From the IMG/VR virus record IMGVR_UViG_3300010885_003488, positions 1 through 23,447 of that record: 23,447 nucleotides of DNA. One strand, written 5' to 3'. The notes beneath the pieces were generated by a model that saw only the letters and a program-made list of their open reading frames with translations, made no database searches and had not been told where the DNA came from. Source of the stretch: a virus. The first letter of the stretch is position 1; each line of letters opens with the position of its first letter. Below, one piece after another: positions 2,876 through 11,428 of the stretch. A program made the translations under genes and the position numbers.

Positions 2876-3323
2876 GCGTCATTATAAGTGCCCGAAGCAC
2901 GGGTTCTTTGAATCATGGGAAGCCGTGTGCAGCCATGGTTGCTTGGACGGCATCAAGGTGGCGTTCCTCAAAGCGCCGGCCTATCTGTCCGATAAGACTA
3001 GGCGAAACGATGCCAACCTTAAGGGGCTGGCAAATGAGTTCAACATGACGAACATCAAGAGCACCCGCGAGGGCGAGCACCAAGAGGGCTACCTGACCCG
3101 CAACAACGCGCCGCCTTTAGAGCAGCCTCCTGAGCAGCGGCCAGGCTCTGGCGTGATCTGGGGCGGCGGTGCGGGGCATAGCATGCAGTCAGTGCTAGGT
3201 GGCGGCATCAAGTCGGTGCGCGGCGAGAGCGTTGGGTTCAATCCGCGGGAAGCAGGCGAATTGCGTGGACCCCGGACGGCGAGTTATGTAGGGGATCATG
3301 AAAACCTTCAGGTGAAACCGTGA
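2865..3323 (+). CDS. Protein with N-terminal zinc-finger-like cluster, unknown function
   Basis: The 152-residue protein begins with C9-P-K-H12 and, ten residues later, C22-S-H-G-C26. This spacing would suit one bound zinc ion (C9, H12, C22, C26, with H24 as an alternative ligand). The rest is polar and glycine/proline-rich with few predicted secondary elements (residues about 75-150), like a virion or adaptor tail. It starts 11 bases inside the preceding gene and its stop overlaps the GTG of the portal gene, so it sits in a translationally coupled chain with terminase and portal. A DNA- or protein-binding role in packaging is possible but is inference. Confidence 0.65.
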   Translation: MAIKRHYKCPKHGFFESWEAVCSHGCLDGIKVAFLKAPAYLSDKTRRNDANLKGLANEFNMTNIKSTREGEHQEGYLTRNNAPPLEQPPEQRPGSGVIWGGGAGHSMQSVLGGGIKSVRGESVGFNPREAGELRGPRTASYVGDHENLQVKP

Positions 3324-4933
3324 TTATTCCAAAAGACCCGATTGAGCGTGAGACGCTGTATCTGGATTTGATGGAGAAGTGCTTTGTGTCCCGCGAGGAG
3401 CGCAAGGCCGATTACAGCAGTTTGCGGTCTTGGTATCTGTTTGGCGCTGGCCCTGACGAAAGCCCGGCACACTACAACAAGATTTACCCGCACATTGACC
3501 AAGTGACGGCGTTTTTGTTTAGCGCCGACACCACGCGCTTTAGCATTAACCTTGGGGCGTCGGTGCCTGAAAACGAGCATACCAAGGTTCAGGTGCTGAC
3601 CACCGCTTTGAACGATAAGTGGTCGGATTCCAACGGCGACCAAGTGTTTGCCATGGCGATGACATGGGCGCTTTGTTATGCATCCACGTTCATTAAGCTG
3701 GTTGTGCGCAACGGGTCCATTCACCCCTACATGGTGGAACCTGGCAGCGTTGGCGTGTTGCGCGAGGATACGCCTTACACAGACCGCCAAGAGGCGTTGG
3801 TCCAGACCTACCACATTACCAAGTCTGATCTAGCTCGCCGGCTGTACGGGCATCCAAAGCGCAAGTCGATTATGGATCGGATTACCGCGGGGCAGCATCA
3901 AGTAAGCCATGTGCCCGAGGGCCTTAACCGCATTGTGATGTCGCAGACCAATCCCACGATCTACGGCACCGTCAATCTTGATCTGTACGGCTACAACCGC
4001 ATGAACGCGCGGGTAGCCGAAGACACGGTTGAAATGCGAGAGTTGTATCTGTGGAACGACGAGATAAACGACTATCAGGTCGTGACCATCGCGGACCCTG
4101 ATATTATCATCTATGACCGCCCCGGCGAGCAGCTTTTTATGAAGGGCGAGCTGCCGTTTATCCAGATTACGCCTAACCCGCAGTACGACTACTACTGGGG
4201 GCAATCTGAGGTGCAGAAGCTGATTTTCTTGCAGCAGATGCGCAACCGCCGCATGACGGAAATTCTTGACCTGTTGAGCAAGCAAGTAAACCCGCCCACG
4301 GCGTTAATGGGTTTTACCGGCATTCTGGATGAGAAGAATTTTGCGTTAAACCGCGCTGGCGGGCTGCTGTCTAACGACATGGCACAAGGCAAGGTTGAGC
4401 GGATGGCCCCGGAGATGCCGGCTGATTTGTTCCGCGAGATTGACGCCATTGACGCCATGTTCAGCGAAGCGTCTGGTATTTCCAGCGTGCTATCTGGCCG
4501 CGGTGAGTCTGGGGTTAGGTCACAGGGCCATGCGTCTCAATTGGCGCGGCTTGGCTCATCGCGCATTAAGAAGCGCGCTTTGGTGATTGAAGACGCGCTT
4601 GAAAAGATGGCGACGTTGTATCTCAAGCTGATGCAGAAGTATGACCCTACGCATTTTAAGGATGCGTTTGGCAATCAGTTTATTGCTGAGCAATTCACCA
4701 AGGACTTCATGGTGAAGGTTGACGCGCACTCCAACAGCCCTATTTTTATGGAGGATATGCGTCAGTTGGCGTTCAATTTGTTCAAGGCGCAAGCCATCGA
4801 CAAAGAATCCTTGATTGACCTGCTTGATCCGCCTATGAAGCAAATGTTGAAAGACAAGCTGAAGAAGCAAGCCGTTCAACAAAAGGCAGGCCCCCCTCCC
4901 GAGGGCAAGCCACCAGGCAAGCAGGGTAAGTGA
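3320..4933 (+). CDS. Portal protein (head-tail connector)
   Basis: The portal forms the dodecameric ring at one capsid vertex through which TerL pumps DNA and to which the tail attaches. The 537 residues fit a podovirus-type portal, as does its place after terL. The protein has the expected mixed alpha/beta N-terminal body with wing and stem regions. A long C-terminal helical region starts near residue 390 with GRGESGVRSQGHASQLARLG, followed by an amphipathic helix (SRIKKRALVIEDALEKMATL). The last 20 or so residues are Pro/Gly/Lys-rich and probably disordered. The start is GTG 3320, overlapping the previous stop by four bases; an internal start would remove conserved N-terminal residues. Confidence 0.85.
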   Translation: MIIPKDPIERETLYLDLMEKCFVSREERKADYSSLRSWYLFGAGPDESPAHYNKIYPHIDQVTAFLFSADTTRFSINLGASVPENEHTKVQVLTTALNDKWSDSNGDQVFAMAMTWALCYASTFIKLVVRNGSIHPYMVEPGSVGVLREDTPYTDRQEALVQTYHITKSDLARRLYGHPKRKSIMDRITAGQHQVSHVPEGLNRIVMSQTNPTIYGTVNLDLYGYNRMNARVAEDTVEMRELYLWNDEINDYQVVTIADPDIIIYDRPGEQLFMKGELPFIQITPNPQYDYYWGQSEVQKLIFLQQMRNRRMTEILDLLSKQVNPPTALMGFTGILDEKNFALNRAGGLLSNDMAQGKVERMAPEMPADLFREIDAIDAMFSEASGISSVLSGRGESGVRSQGHASQLARLGSSRIKKRALVIEDALEKMATLYLKLMQKYDPTHFKDAFGNQFIAEQFTKDFMVKVDAHSNSPIFMEDMRQLAFNLFKAQAIDKESLIDLLDPPMKQMLKDKLKKQAVQQKAGPPPEGKPPGKQGK

Positions 4934-5094
4934 TGGCGCAGGATTTTAGAATCCAATCCGACCAGCCCCGAGCGCAAGCAAAAGACATTGCGCGCGGTAA
5001 TCCTTCGCCCTCCATAGAATACAGGGTATCCTCCATTCGCACCCTTGGTAACAGGGCAGCGCCACGCGCTAATGCGCGTTCGGAAAGGAGGTGA
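4933..5094 (+). CDS. Small 53-residue ORF coupled to the portal gene
   Basis: An ATG overlapping the portal stop (TGATG) opens a 53-codon frame. Its own TGA stop (5092-5094) falls inside the strong Shine-Dalgarno of the following micro-ORF. The peptide is polar and becomes basic toward the end (RAAPRANARSERR). It has no cysteine pair, membrane segment or motif I recognise. The frame may encode a small structural protein. It may also serve mainly to carry ribosomes to the micro-ORF start, since a ribosome terminating at 5094 stands directly on the next ribosome binding site. The overlap arrangement is seen directly; expression is inference. Confidence 0.55.
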   Translation: MAQDFRIQSDQPRAQAKDIARGNPSPSIEYRVSSIRTLGNRAAPRANARSERR

Positions 5095-5098
5095 TACC
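5085..5098 (+). promoter_or_regulatory. Near-perfect Shine-Dalgarno for the 14-codon micro-ORF
   Basis: AAGGAGGTGAT at 5085-5095 matches the complement of the bacterial 16S rRNA 3' end over 11 bases. GGAGG sits seven bases before the ATG at 5099. This is the strongest ribosome binding site in the window, stronger than that of the major capsid gene, and it serves a frame of only 14 codons. It contains the stop codon of the preceding small ORF. Confidence 0.8.
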
Positions 5099-5143
5099 AT
5101 GTACAAGTCCGTCAAGCGCGGTCGCCGTAAAGGCTGCCGCTAA
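5099..5143 (+). CDS. Micro-ORF 1: 14-residue Arg/Lys-rich peptide
   Basis: The frame reads MYKSVKRGRRKGCR, with seven of fourteen residues Arg or Lys and one cysteine. The ribosome binding site is almost ideal (5085-5095), and the ATG is the first start codon after it, so initiation here is highly likely. The product resembles arginine-rich nucleic-acid-binding peptides: the tiny basic J protein of microviruses, which is packaged with DNA, and arginine-rich RNA-binding motifs such as that of lambda N. Neither relation can be shown from so short a sequence. Alternatives are a leader peptide that controls downstream translation, or a virion component that neutralises DNA. Confidence 0.6.
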   Translation: MYKSVKRGRRKGCR

Positions 5144-5168
5144 TGCGGTGTGTGCAACTCTAACCACG

Positions 5169-5182
5169 AAAGGAGGTTTCCC
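5169..5182 (+). promoter_or_regulatory. Strong Shine-Dalgarno for the 10-codon micro-ORF
   Basis: AAAGGAGGT occurs at 5169-5177, with GGAGG six bases before ATG 5183. It is a second consensus ribosome binding site, less than 90 bases after the first, again in front of a very short basic frame. Confidence 0.75.
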
Positions 5183-5215
5183 ATGCGTCGCAAGGGTCGT
5201 AAGGCTCGCCGGTAA
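5183..5215 (+). CDS. Micro-ORF 2: 10-residue Arg/Lys-rich peptide
   Basis: The frame reads MRRKGRKARR and then TAA; seven of ten residues are Arg or Lys. Like micro-ORF 1 it has a consensus ribosome binding site at ideal spacing. Both peptides share a K/R-G-R-K pattern (GRRKG and RKGRK), so they may be diverged copies or may serve the same job. The frame stays open after the TAA for about two dozen codons, up to a TGA at 5288-5290. I see no established readthrough signal, so I call the 10-residue product. Function could be DNA or RNA binding, or translational control of the head genes downstream. Confidence 0.55.
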   Translation: MRRKGRKARR

Positions 5216-5222
5216 CTAACGC

Positions 5223-5317
5223 ACTGCCTTGAGCAGTCGTTAATCCGCGACTTCCGCGCGGGACCGGAGGAGAAAAATAGTCCCGCTTGACTTTGCATTA
5301 TCGTGGGTGTTACCCCG
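5223..5317 (+). promoter_or_regulatory. Cluster of hairpins in the leader of the head genes
   Basis: Several inverted repeats follow the micro-ORFs. They are ACTGC/GCAGT (5223-5237), CCGCG/CGCGG (5245-5249 with 5257-5261), GCGGGAC/GTCCCGC (5258-5264 with 5280-5286, seven perfect pairs) and GGGT/ACCC (5305-5308 with 5312-5315). The second and third share bases 5258-5261 and therefore exclude each other. The loop of the third (5265-5279) displays GGAGGAG, a Shine-Dalgarno-like sequence with no start codon at normal distance. None is followed by a T-run, so a rho-independent terminator is unlikely. A translational or RNA-processing control element is the best reading. Confidence 0.45.
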
Positions 5318-5340: not shown

Positions 5341-5922
5341 GTGTCCGAAAGCGTTATGAGGCTGCTGCAAAACCAGCGCCCGAAAGAAGCACCGGAACTG
5401 ACAGCGCCTGATCCGGGTGAAGGCGGCATTACGTCTCCTCCGATGGCGTCTCCCATGAGTACGCCCGAGCCTAAGATGGGTTCGCGCGAAGCCGCGCTAA
5501 TCAATGTTGGCATGGCAATGGATTTGATCGAGCAGTCTCTTCCCGCAATTGGAAGCGAGACTGCGGACGGCCAAAGGTTAGTATCCGCGCTGCGCTCTTT
5601 AACGGGCGCTATGGGGCCTCGCCGTCAGAAGGTTGGCGAGCTTCAGAACGCCGAAATTCTTCAGTTGTTGCAGAATCTGCCGCAAGCTGGTGGCGCAACG
5701 CCCGAAATGAAGGCGATGGCCAGTATGCCAGCTATTCCTGGTATGGGTGGTGCCGGTGGTCCTCCGGGCGCACCCCCGCCGCCTCCGGGTCCGCCGATGC
5801 CAATGCCGGGCGGAATGCCTGGTGGTCCGCCTCCGGGCGGTATGCCAATGCCGGGTGGTCCGCCGCCTGGCCGTCCCCCAATGCCGGGTGCGGGTGGTCC
5901 GCTCCCTGGAATGCCCCGATAG
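5341..5922 (+). CDS. Head-region protein with Pro/Gly/Met-rich low-complexity tail
   Basis: The 193-residue protein has two parts. Residues about 45-112 are helical (MGSREAALINVGMAMDLIEQ, then a second helix around 105-112). Residues about 127-193 are almost only Pro, Gly and Met, in short repeats such as GGPPPGG and PMPGG, and are surely disordered or polyproline-like. I chose GTG 5341, with GGAG six bases upstream, over TTG 5287, which lies at the foot of a hairpin. It sits between portal and scaffold, so a capsid-assembly or virion role is likely by context only. The tail might bind capsid proteins or host surfaces. I know no function for it. Confidence 0.65.
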   Translation: MSESVMRLLQNQRPKEAPELTAPDPGEGGITSPPMASPMSTPEPKMGSREAALINVGMAMDLIEQSLPAIGSETADGQRLVSALRSLTGAMGPRRQKVGELQNAEILQLLQNLPQAGGATPEMKAMASMPAIPGMGGAGGPPGAPPPPPGPPMPMPGGMPGGPPPGGMPMPGGPPPGRPPMPGAGGPLPGMPR

Positions 5923-6118: not shown

Positions 6119-6661
6119 ATGGCGTCTCTTGAAGATTTGAGCTTTGAAACCCGCGACGAACTGGCTCGTTTGGCTCGTTCGCTGGCTGAAAACCCAGATA
6201 CCCGTAAGGATTTTCTGCGGTTGACCAAGAAGGCGCAGCCGGGCCTTAACATCCCCGAATTGGAGATTGAAGAGTCCGTTACGCGCCATGCGTCGGCTTC
6301 TGAGGCTCGCATTCAGATGCTGGAAGCCAAACTTCAAGAGAAAGACGCTCTTGCTGAGTTGGAAAAGCGCCGTCAGTCTTTAATGAAAGCCGGCAAAATC
6401 CGCAGCGAAGATGAAATCCAAGAAGTGGAGAAGGTGATGCTTGAGAAAGGCATTACCAACCACGAAACGGCGGCGGATTACCACCGCTGGATGAAGGAAG
6501 CAGCCGCTCCCACGGCATCGTCCTTCAACATGAATGTGCTGGACGGCAAAGCGCGCGATACTCTCCAGTCTTACTGGAAGAATCCGCAACGTGCAGCGCG
6601 TGACGAAGCGTTCAAGGCTCTTGCGGAACTGCGCAACCCGCGCCGTCCCATTGGTCTCTGA
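6119..6661 (+). CDS. Probable capsid scaffold / assembly protein
   Basis: The 180-residue protein is acidic and helical through its middle. Residues about 58-100 (SASEARIQMLEAKLQEKDAL and onward) form a good coiled coil, and the C-terminal end is short and basic (ELRNPRRPIG). A coiled-coil body with a basic capsid-binding tail, lying directly before the major capsid gene, is the classic scaffold pattern: the protein directs coat assembly and leaves before or during packaging. No protease gene or domain is visible nearby, so release without cleavage is plausible. The sequence does not match a scaffold family that I can name, so the call rests on composition and position. Confidence 0.7.
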   Translation: MASLEDLSFETRDELARLARSLAENPDTRKDFLRLTKKAQPGLNIPELEIEESVTRHASASEARIQMLEAKLQEKDALAELEKRRQSLMKAGKIRSEDEIQEVEKVMLEKGITNHETAADYHRWMKEAAAPTASSFNMNVLDGKARDTLQSYWKNPQRAARDEAFKALAELRNPRRPIGL

Positions 6662-6691: not shown

Positions 6692-7708
6692 ATGCCAATT
6701 GGTGGTGGTATTCTCCCCGCATCGGGGAGCACGCAGTACACAGAACTGACCTACCTTACTCGTAGGGCGTTCATTCCGAAACTCGTTGTCCAGATTTACA
6801 ACAGCACCCCGCTTATGGCGGCGCTGATTGCAAACAGCCAGCAGGCCACGGGCGGTGTTTCGTCCGTTACCGTGCCGGTGCAGGGCAGCCAGTTTATCAA
6901 CGCGCAGTGGTCGGACTATTCCGGTTCGTTCACTCAGCCTGCGGTGCAGCAGGGCGCGTACAACGCTGAGTTTAACCTCAAGTTGATGATCGCCCCGGTG
7001 CCGTTCCTTGGTATGGAAGGCGCTGTGCAGCAGGATCACGCGGTTATCCCGCTGATCGAAGCGCGCATGAATGACGCTACCAACGTCATGATGGACGGTA
7101 TGGCGACGGCGCTGTACAACAACACCACCAACACCCAGCAGTTTATTGGTCTGCCGGGCGCGGTGGATGACGGCACCACGCTGGGCACCTACGGCAACAT
7201 TGCCCGCTCTACCACGGTCAATACCTGGTGGCGCTCCAAGGTGTACGCTGCTGGTTCGGTCAACCCGACCCGTCAGAACGTGCTCCAGTACATTAGCGGT
7301 ACGGTCAAAAACGGCGCGGAAGTGCCGACTTTCGGCGTGTGCGGCTTTGGCACTTGGACCCTGTTGGCGCAGGATTACGTTGGTCAGGAGCAGTACGTCA
7401 TTACGCCGGGTTCCGGCTTTGACGGCGATGCCAATGGCCCGCAGGCTGCGTTCCGCGCGCTCATGGTTGCCGGTGTGCCGATCTATCCCGATCCGTACTG
7501 CCCCGAAGGCACCATGTACTTCCTGAACACCAACTACCTGTCGTTGTATATCCACGATCAGGGTTCGTTTGTGTTCACGGGCTTTGAATCAACCCTGCCT
7601 AACTGGCAGATTGGTTATGTCGGTGCTGTGCTCATGATTGCGGAGTTGGTGAACACCAAGCCTCGCGCCATGACCAAGGTTACTGGCTATAACGCTCTAA
7701 CGATCTAA
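6692..7708 (+). CDS. Major capsid protein
   Basis: At 338 residues with an AGGAG site (6681-6685) seven bases before ATG 6692, this is the main shell protein, expected to have the HK97 fold. The N-terminal arm (ILPASGSTQYTELTYLTRRA) leads into a helical spine region (VIPLIEARMNDATNVMMDGM at about 120-139). The second half carries the alpha/beta A-domain, with the VAGVPIYPDPYCPEGTMYFL stretch typical of HK97-like coats. The position after scaffold and before small virion genes agrees. No cleavable delta domain is obvious in the protein itself. Codon use looks smooth, and the gene is likely among the most highly expressed. Confidence 0.88.
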   Translation: MPIGGGILPASGSTQYTELTYLTRRAFIPKLVVQIYNSTPLMAALIANSQQATGGVSSVTVPVQGSQFINAQWSDYSGSFTQPAVQQGAYNAEFNLKLMIAPVPFLGMEGAVQQDHAVIPLIEARMNDATNVMMDGMATALYNNTTNTQQFIGLPGAVDDGTTLGTYGNIARSTTVNTWWRSKVYAAGSVNPTRQNVLQYISGTVKNGAEVPTFGVCGFGTWTLLAQDYVGQEQYVITPGSGFDGDANGPQAAFRALMVAGVPIYPDPYCPEGTMYFLNTNYLSLYIHDQGSFVFTGFESTLPNWQIGYVGAVLMIAELVNTKPRAMTKVTGYNALTI

Positions 7709-9490: not shown

Positions 9491-11428
9491 ATGGCCGCAG
9501 CAGAGCAGAAAAAATCCTATCAGGTCGTCAAGAACTTCAAGGGTGTAAACACCCAAGCTAACCGCACGGCCATTGATAGCGACCAATTTGCTTGGCTTGA
9601 GAATGTGCAGCCCATTGGGTTTGGCAACCTTAAAACGCTTGGCGTACAGAGCGCCGACTTGTTCACTTGGTCTGGCACGCCGTCTGCCTGCTATAGCTGC
9701 AACATCAAGAACGTAGATTACATCATAGCGTTCTTCACCAACGGTGGTGCTCAGTATTATCGCGTGGACACGGGCGCTACGGGAACGGTTGCCGCTGCGG
9801 CTAAGTTTTCGGCTTCTGGTGTGCGTATTGCGCAGTGGAAGACTGACCGCATTTTGATTTGCGACACCGTAAAGGGGCTGTTCAATTGGGACGGCACCAA
9901 TGTTGTGTCCATCGGTTCGATTTCCGGTTACGGAATGGTGAACCGCGGATCGGGTTACACCTCTGCGCCATCGGTTGCTATTGGACCGCCTAACGAGACA
10001 GGTGGCGTTCAGGCTGTTGCCCAAGCGATAATGACGGCCAATGGCGTGAGCGGGCTGTTGTTTACTGAGGCTGGTACGGGCTACACGTCGCCTCCCACGG
10101 TCACGTTCACGGGTGGCGGCGGCACCAATGCAAACGCTGTAGTAAGCACGCTGAGCTTCGCCAAGGGCACTGTGGGCGCTTACGTGCTGAGTGGCGGCAC
10201 TGGTTATACAGCGGCCCCCACGGTTACCATAACGGGTGGCGGAGGCACTAACGCTGCGGCCACGGCAATTGTTGAAGGCAATGCGGTTATCGGGTTGGTT
10301 TTCAGCAACAACGGCATCAACTACACCTCGCCGCCCACCATTGCGTTTAGCACGGGCGCTGCAATTGCGACGGCTGTAGCAACCACGGATAACAGCCCGG
10401 CCGTAAGCACGTTCTCTGGGCGTGTGTGGGTGGCGCAGGGGCGTTCGGTCTACTACTCGGCCGCGGGCAGCTACAACGACTTTGTGAGCGTGAGCGCCGG
10501 CAACATCAACATCCAAGATGAGACGCTGCACAATAACATCACGGCGATGCTCTCGGCCAACAACTTCTTGTACATTTTTGGCGATAGCAGCATCAACGTG
10601 TTTTCAGATGTTCGTGTACAAACGAACGGTACCACGATCTTCACCAACACCAACGTCACGGCCTCGGTGGGCAGCAAGCGGGAAATGACCATCTTCCCGT
10701 ATTTCCGCTCTGTGCTGTTTATGAACGACTACGGCGTTTACGCGCTGGTGGGCAGCACCACTACCAAATTGAGCAACGAGCTTGATGCCATTTTCCCGCT
10801 GATCGACTTTACGCAGCCGGTGACGGGCGGCCAGGTGCTGATTAACAACATTCTGTGCGCGGCTTGGTCGTTTACCTACAACGATCCGTTGTCCAGCGCG
10901 CGGCAAATCCAGGCCGTGTTCTTTGACAAGCGGTGGTTTTTTACGTCGCAGGGTGCGTTGACCTATGTGACTAGCATTCCCGCGGGCGGCGTAATAAGCC
11001 TTTATGGCACCACCAGCACGGGCCTTTTCAGGCTGTACAACAGCAGCACGGTAGGCGCTAACGTCATTGTGCGTAGCGCGCTGTGGCCGATGAATGACCC
11101 AATTAGGGACAAACAGGCGCTGAAAGCGGCCATAGAGGCTACAACGAGCACTGTTGGCACGTTTGCAGCCACGATTGATAGTGAGACTAGCTCTAACCCG
11201 GTCGCGTTGAATGTTGGTTACCTTAGCTGGGTCAACAACGCTGGAACCACGATTCCGTGGACAAACAACAGTAGCGCGGTTATAAATTGGACCAACACGG
11301 GCTATCTGCTGTACAAGGCGGATGCTCAGCAGTATGGCAAGTACCTAGGTTTGACGATTACGGCGTCTAATGCTTTGTTTACGTTAAACACTCTTGAACT
11401 TGAATACGAACTCAGAGCGAGGTTCTAA
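9491..11428 (+). CDS. Tail hub / packaged-DNA stabilisation protein, P22 gp10-like, with inserted beta repeats
   Basis: The N-terminal pattern (VVKNFKGVNTQANRTAIDSD, then FAWLENVQPIGFGNLKTL) is that of podovirus hub or nozzle proteins, which close the portal after packaging and hold the fibres. The body is beta-propeller-like, with short strand motifs such as NFLYIFGDSSINVFS and VLFMNDYGVYALVGS. Residues about 150-295 hold a separate array of four repeats of the form G-x-G-Y-x-x-P-P-x-V-x-F-x-G-G-G-G, absent from the rest. At 645 residues it is longer than P22 gp10, largely because of this insert. It starts one base after the adaptor stop with no strong ribosome binding site, so it probably depends on coupling. 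Confidence 0.75.
   Translation: MAAAEQKKSYQVVKNFKGVNTQANRTAIDSDQFAWLENVQPIGFGNLKTLGVQSADLFTWSGTPSACYSCNIKNVDYIIAFFTNGGAQYYRVDTGATGTVAAAAKFSASGVRIAQWKTDRILICDTVKGLFNWDGTNVVSIGSISGYGMVNRGSGYTSAPSVAIGPPNETGGVQAVAQAIMTANGVSGLLFTEAGTGYTSPPTVTFTGGGGTNANAVVSTLSFAKGTVGAYVLSGGTGYTAAPTVTITGGGGTNAAATAIVEGNAVIGLVFSNNGINYTSPPTIAFSTGAAIATAVATTDNSPAVSTFSGRVWVAQGRSVYYSAAGSYNDFVSVSAGNINIQDETLHNNITAMLSANNFLYIFGDSSINVFSDVRVQTNGTTIFTNTNVTASVGSKREMTIFPYFRSVLFMNDYGVYALVGSTTTKLSNELDAIFPLIDFTQPVTGGQVLINNILCAAWSFTYNDPLSSARQIQAVFFDKRWFFTSQGALTYVTSIPAGGVISLYGTTSTGLFRLYNSSTVGANVIVRSALWPMNDPIRDKQALKAAIEATTSTVGTFAATIDSETSSNPVALNVGYLSWVNNAGTTIPWTNNSSAVINWTNTGYLLYKADAQQYGKYLGLTITASNALFTLNTLELEYELRARF

Follow-up and report, generated by a model that had tools for sequence, protein, structure and literature searches.

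Very short arginine/lysine-rich genes conserved in the head-gene region of uncultured tailed phages, with a possible role in DNA condensation

A little-known group of tailed phages carries strongly conserved genes for mostly positively charged peptides of about 9-28 aa, which have been missed by gene-finding programs. Two of them, here called micro1 and micro2, are located in the window, the whole stretch of 23,447 bases of an IMG/VR virus record that was analysed, and almost certainly have a coding function. Sequence comparison tips slightly towards their being protamine-like peptides, which would bind the phage dsDNA, enter the head, and aid condensation.

Genome layout and ribosome-binding sites

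The terminase, portal, and major capsid protein (MCP) were assigned by PHROGs, and the remaining genes by ORFs and position. The gene order on the + strand is terminase, two unknown genes, portal, gpS, micro1, micro2, an unknown gene, a 61-aa gene, probable scaffold, and MCP. The main features are listed below.

720-2480, + strand: terminase (PHROGs)
3320-4933, + strand: portal protein (phrog_1216/156)
4933-5094, + strand: gpS, 53 aa, net charge +6 (35-member alignment)
5085-5095, + strand: Shine-Dalgarno of micro1, AAGGAGGTGAT (11-base match to the anti-Shine-Dalgarno, -18.9 kcal/mol)
5099-5143, + strand: putative Arg/Lys micro-gene micro1, MYKSVKRGRRKGCR (sequence, conservation, codon-level selection)
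5169-5177, + strand: Shine-Dalgarno of micro2, AAAGGAGGT (-12.8 kcal/mol)
5183-5215, + strand: putative Arg/Lys micro-gene micro2, MRRKGRKARR (sequence, conservation, codon-level selection)
5258-5292, + strand: hairpin GCGGGAC - CGGAGGAGAAAAATA - GTCCCGC, then TTGACT (near-clade conservation; the hairpin itself is 5258-5286)
5341-5922, + strand: next gene, head-region protein without an assigned role (ORF, position, conserved core)
6119-6661, + strand: probable scaffold (position only)
6692-7708, + strand: MCP (phrog_9953)

The initial annotation had described both micro-ORFs together with their Shine-Dalgarno sites; its coordinates, peptide sequences, sites, and 11-base pairing all proved correct when the sequence was rechecked. 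The Shine-Dalgarno of micro1 is complementary to the 16S 3' end across 11 bases, with GGAGG ending 7 nt before the ATG at 5099; that of micro2 precedes the ATG at 5183. These sites had been called the best in the window. This holds for micro1, whose anti-Shine-Dalgarno duplex ranks first among the 25 window genes and first among the 377 + strand ATGs, and nearly holds for micro2, which ranks third among the genes and fourth among the + strand ATGs. Arg and Lys account for 7 of the 14 residues of micro1 and 7 of the 10 residues of micro2, in keeping with the annotated share of at least half. Throughout the window and five relatives of 33-36 kb, this post-portal pair is the sole convincing set of R/K-rich micro-ORFs.

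The gpS gene between the portal and micro1 is an extra gene that the initial annotation had overlooked. Its start overlaps the portal stop, and its stop TGA (5092-5094) falls within the micro1 Shine-Dalgarno. The gpS homologues, about 50-60 aa in the 35-member alignment, share the motif ADQPRV...LQYRV and an Arg-rich C-terminus; Pfam and PHROG searches with gpS returned no family and no significant match. T7 gp6.7 was considered as a relative and rejected (1 of 35 members matched, E 0.2). A frameshift product fusing gpS, micro1, and micro2 was also rejected, given the spacers of 38-88 nt and the separate start and stop of each ORF. Further downstream, the core of the 5341-5922 product (SPMSTPEPKMGSREAALINVGMAMDLIEQ) is highly conserved and gave no PHROG match; its C-terminus is a long low-complexity Pro/Gly/Met tract.

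Conservation in related phages

Relatives were collected by a portal search (best 80 of 367) and an MCP search (80 further loci), and are all uncultured and metagenomic. Micro-ORFs were detected by composition (45% K+R cut-off) and ribosome-binding-site thresholds. Where the DNA is present, the post-portal interval almost always contains gpS followed by Arg/Lys-rich micro-ORFs. A search at the same junction in related phages had been proposed at the outset, and 109 of the 112 distinct portal-to-next-gene intervals were found to carry one to three of them. The intervals contain 203 micro-ORFs in 59.8 kb, versus 4 in the remaining 1,694 kb of these loci; the densities are 3.4 and 0.0024 per kb, an enrichment of more than 1,000-fold. 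A typical micro1 reads MYK(A/S/T)xKRGRKTRR, and a typical micro2 reads M(A)RRKGRKARR or MARKxRKGRKARK. When the micro-ORFs were compared with the portal, MCP, and next gene, the strongest ribosome-binding site belonged to a micro-ORF in 80 of 99 loci.

The pair is also contained, unannotated, in GenBank MW202825 and MW202753. In both records, antisense "hypothetical protein" ORFs are annotated over the micro-ORF region (L082 6779-7039 and L083 4740-5038, respectively). The micro2 homologue after the portal of locus L037 begins with an Ile codon instead of ATG (IARKGRKSRKMCK), which is either a sequencing error or a non-standard start.

A distant clade, with portals 28-30% and MCPs 43-49% identical to those of the window, was reached via a DNA pattern encoding MAxxGRK... 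downstream of a ribosome-binding site. The peptide MAKRGRKSKRSHRRSKR occupies the same position there. A basic micro-ORF lies 1.27-1.77 kb upstream of the MCP start in 35 of 36 loci, several of which are redundant contigs; the remaining locus (L208) has a weaker, Lys-rich version. A further group (48% portal and 65% MCP identity) carries MAKRGRKHKRK. At least one basic micro-ORF was found in 7 of 9 MAG contigs with related MCPs, and no obvious one in the MAG-derived L222 and L226. Up to four different basic micro-ORFs stand in tandem on a MAG contig labelled Paludibacterium (L224 4087-4460).

In a third clade (L163, L166, and L246-L250), portals and MCPs were confirmed, and no micro-ORFs were found between them. 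Instead, three or four ORFs for strongly Arg-rich products of 14-36 aa are located downstream of the homologue of the window gene at 9491, within the virion-gene cluster and after a virion-structural gene. Third-clade micro-ORFs (L270 11198-11278, L247 5386-5496) share A(A/S)RRNLRKARR, which is more sequence-specific than the others.

On a single contig of a very distant phage (L170 8471-8719), an 82-aa basic protein that starts with MAKRGRKAKRK and ends with MRKGRKRK is encoded upstream of the probable scaffold and MCP; it is possibly a fused or expanded micro-ORF version. No equivalent was seen in the stretches examined of named phages with MCPs 23-30% identical (Mx9, BUCT555, TM7 phage, ppBjS10J-1, and others). 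The longer relatives (22, 36, 44, and 82 aa) gave no significant Pfam or PHROG match; peptides shorter than 20 aa are below the limit of these tools.

All clades share the small size and charge of the products, strong initiation, and a location among the virion genes; the sequences, the number of copies, their spacing, and their place in the genome change from clade to clade. The genes are linked to head/virion genes.

Selection on the peptides

The initial annotation had also proposed a test of codon-level conservation, and a clear excess of synonymous change was found. Differences between nearest relatives fall on codon positions 1:2:3 in the ratio 59:35:193 (chi-square p ~1e-33, with the nearest-neighbour pairs partly non-independent), and the codon changes are 172 synonymous versus 66 non-synonymous. 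Within same-length families, pN/pS is 0.19-0.63. For 281 pairs with portals 70-80% identical, identity is 64-69% in the DNA of the micro-ORFs and 49% in the inter-ORF spacer. In the most distant class the values are 60-65% versus 42%, with shuffled spacers at 37%. Reading frame, start, ribosome-binding site, and residues are kept, as in protein-coding genes; the view of these ORFs as real, conserved basic micro-genes, with frames and basic residues retained alongside the ribosome-binding sites, is strongly supported. Chance ORFs were rejected on the interval enrichment and the codon-position bias. A structured RNA as the conserved object at the micro-ORFs was rejected on the same bias and the unconserved spacers.

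The 94 distinct peptides (1,194 residues) contain 32% R and 26% K, a single acidic residue, and 3% V/I/L/M/F/W after Met1. R-to-K exchanges needed three base changes in 1,224 of 1,362 pairwise cases. K/(K+R) drops as the locus GC rises (rho -0.62), and K+R stays at about 0.6, a constancy that is partly a consequence of the 45% collection cut-off. CGT and CGC make up 87% of the Arg codons in the micro-ORFs versus 64% in the portal. The peptides are selected for positive charge.

Proposed role in DNA condensation

The micro-ORFs would be translated strongly from the virion-gene region, beside the portal, scaffold, and capsid genes. Their products, with about 60% Arg+Lys, almost no acidic residues, and few hydrophobic ones, would bind the phage dsDNA non-specifically, enter the head with it, neutralise charge, and help condensation or ordered packaging. 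As an illustration, a 34-kb genome has ~68,000 phosphates, and 300 copies of each peptide, at +7 per copy, would neutralise about 6% of them. Selection for charge over sequence, together with the strong synthesis predicted for genes next to those of the head, suggests that the peptides bind nucleic acid electrostatically and without specificity, and some nucleic-acid-binding role is probable. We infer further that the ligand is the genome, that the peptides end in the virion, and that the effect is condensation; the chances for condensation of virion DNA are evenly balanced.

Among the roles listed by the initial annotation, genome condensation fits best, and leader peptides and antitermination are disfavoured. 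Charge, size, and initiation persist through drift in sequence, copy number, spacing, and position, which argues against leader or specific antitermination roles. It may be, though the chance seems a little below even, that an uncultured freshwater/soil tailed-phage lineage packs its dsDNA with a protamine system of its own, encoded by stand-alone micro-genes that are 9-28 codons long and occur in arrays. Selection would then act on little apart from net positive charge, so that sequence, copy number, and genome position could drift.

Several observations count against condensation. Residues for J-like anchoring, which could retain the peptides in the head, are absent from them, and DNA packaging in most tailed phages does without peptides of this kind. 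Some sequence specificity is suggested by the motifs MYKxxKRGRKxRR in micro1 and A(A/S)RRNLRKARR in the third clade, and the two MAG-derived relatives L222 and L226 lack an obvious micro-ORF.

Alternative explanations

The peptides might instead be head-assembly cofactors, which bind the acidic face of the portal, scaffold, terminase, or capsid, or act as DNA "sleds" rather than bulk condensers. The model for the latter is the 11-aa adenovirus peptide pVIc, which slides on DNA (PMC7998265). The location of the micro-ORFs, which in two clades lie after the portal gene and before those for scaffold and capsid, would suit this explanation, as would the net charge of -6 of both portal and MCP. However, the scaffold is almost neutral (-1), the third-clade genes lie away from portal and scaffold, and a specific protein partner would constrain the sequence more than is observed; the copies vary from 1 to 4 and the lengths from 9 to 36 aa. 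A cofactor role is unlikely.

The region after the last micro-ORF bears on a possible role in RNA binding. In the near clade, the last micro-ORF is followed, ahead of the next gene, by a hairpin with a 6-9 bp stem, the loop GGA...AAATA, and TTGACA immediately after. The stem shows many compensating (covarying) variants, and its sequence is unconserved. TTGAC is present in 75 of 90 regions (versus 13% of shuffles), and the hairpin in 53 of these 75 (versus 13% of shuffles). The combination was found 62 times beside micro-ORFs versus 4 times elsewhere in about 4 Mb scanned. RNAalifold reported no pairs on a MAFFT alignment of the hairpins because the stem register differs between groups; the stems were instead compared individually against shuffled controls. 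A sigma-70 -10 box after TTGACA is in weak excess (3.33 versus 3.14 +/- 0.11 matches), and an Rfam search of the window gave no match. This element may serve as a head-gene promoter (or its -35), as a signal in RNA processing or regulation, or as the target to which the peptides bind.

If it were the target, the peptides would bind the hairpin at 5258-5286, or other phage RNA, and control late transcription or translation in an N-peptide/boxB-like manner. Arg-rich motifs are known binders of RNA hairpins, and the covarying element adjoins the micro-ORFs of near-clade phages. Yet the distant clade keeps the peptides with no hairpin seen downstream of the micro-ORF, the peptide sequence drifts, and neither a conserved stem sequence nor an Rfam match was found. 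For antitermination, a second domain for polymerase contact is absent; the peptides are 9-22 aa with no other domain, in one to four copies. Regulation of this kind is improbable.

Late cationic peptides that are strongly expressed could also be directed at the host, acting on its nucleic acid, ribosomes, or membranes, or be ejected to protect the DNA, as is the T4 internal protein IPI (PMC9958956). This is quite improbable for micro-ORFs located in the structural gene region, the products of which have few membrane-type hydrophobic residues (3%).

That translation rather than its product controls the next genes, as in leader peptides or translational coupling, is hardly credible: the very strong ribosome-binding sites and the gpS stop within the micro1 Shine-Dalgarno would fit, but the peptide composition is conserved at the codon level, the distance to the next gene varies and the spacers are near-random (42% identity versus 37% when shuffled), one clade has the cassette elsewhere, a separate hairpin-TTGACA element stands between cassette and next gene, and neither fixed spacing nor an attenuator was found before a regulated gene.

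Significance

No published description of such peptides was found in a partial literature search, and they may be listed in a large phage small-gene survey (Cell Reports 2022). The micro-ORFs show that conserved, clearly coding genes of about ten codons occur in phage structural clusters and escape annotation; few conserved protein-coding genes known would be as small. Tailed phages are thought to confine their DNA by the motor and small cations. If the proposed condensation role is true, dedicated protamine-like peptides would also be used by tailed phages, to our knowledge the first dedicated genome-condensing peptides in this group, and the view of packing and ejection pressure would change. 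The ~150 natural variants offer a resource for the study of DNA condensation by short cationic peptides.

Comparison with known systems

The lambda N protein, of about 100 aa, contains a short Arg/Lys-rich segment, contacts NusA and RNAP, and has a fixed boxB partner. The Arg-rich segment is common to N and the micro peptides, as a resemblance only. The NusA/RNAP-binding region of N was not found in the near-clade peptides, which total 9-22 aa. A conserved hairpin accompanies the micro-ORFs of near-clade phages and was not seen after the micro-ORF in the distant clade.

The microvirus J/VP8 proteins are very small, highly basic phage virion proteins, held to bind the packaged DNA (PMC11281519). 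Both they and the micro peptides are short and highly basic, although J/VP8 are longer. The C-terminal residues of J/VP8 are buried in a mostly hydrophobic coat pocket, whereas nearly all micro peptides have a basic end and 3% hydrophobic residues. J/VP8 belong to T=1 ssDNA phages; the window derives from a tailed phage with dsDNA that encodes a terminase, a portal, and an MCP of a tailed-phage family, and has relatives of 33-42 kb. The micro peptides are placed outside the J family because they lack the pocket-type C-terminus and come from another type of phage.

Along with J/VP8, adenovirus mu and baculovirus P6.9 are the nearest working analogues. T4 IPI-IPIII are held at about 360 copies each in a tailed-phage head together with the DNA (PMC9958956); unlike the micro peptides, they are larger, have a capsid-targeting sequence, are processed by protease, and are non-essential for assembly. 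The baculovirus P6.9 is a protamine-like analogue (PMC6669607), but at about 50 aa, from an unrelated virus and regulated by phosphorylation, it also differs from them. The adenovirus core protein X (mu) is a basic peptide of 19 aa, present in 100-300 copies, which helps to condense dsDNA (PMC7998265). Mu is released by protease from a precursor of ~79 aa, whereas the micro peptides are encoded by genes of their own, each with its own ribosome-binding site, in arrays of one to four.
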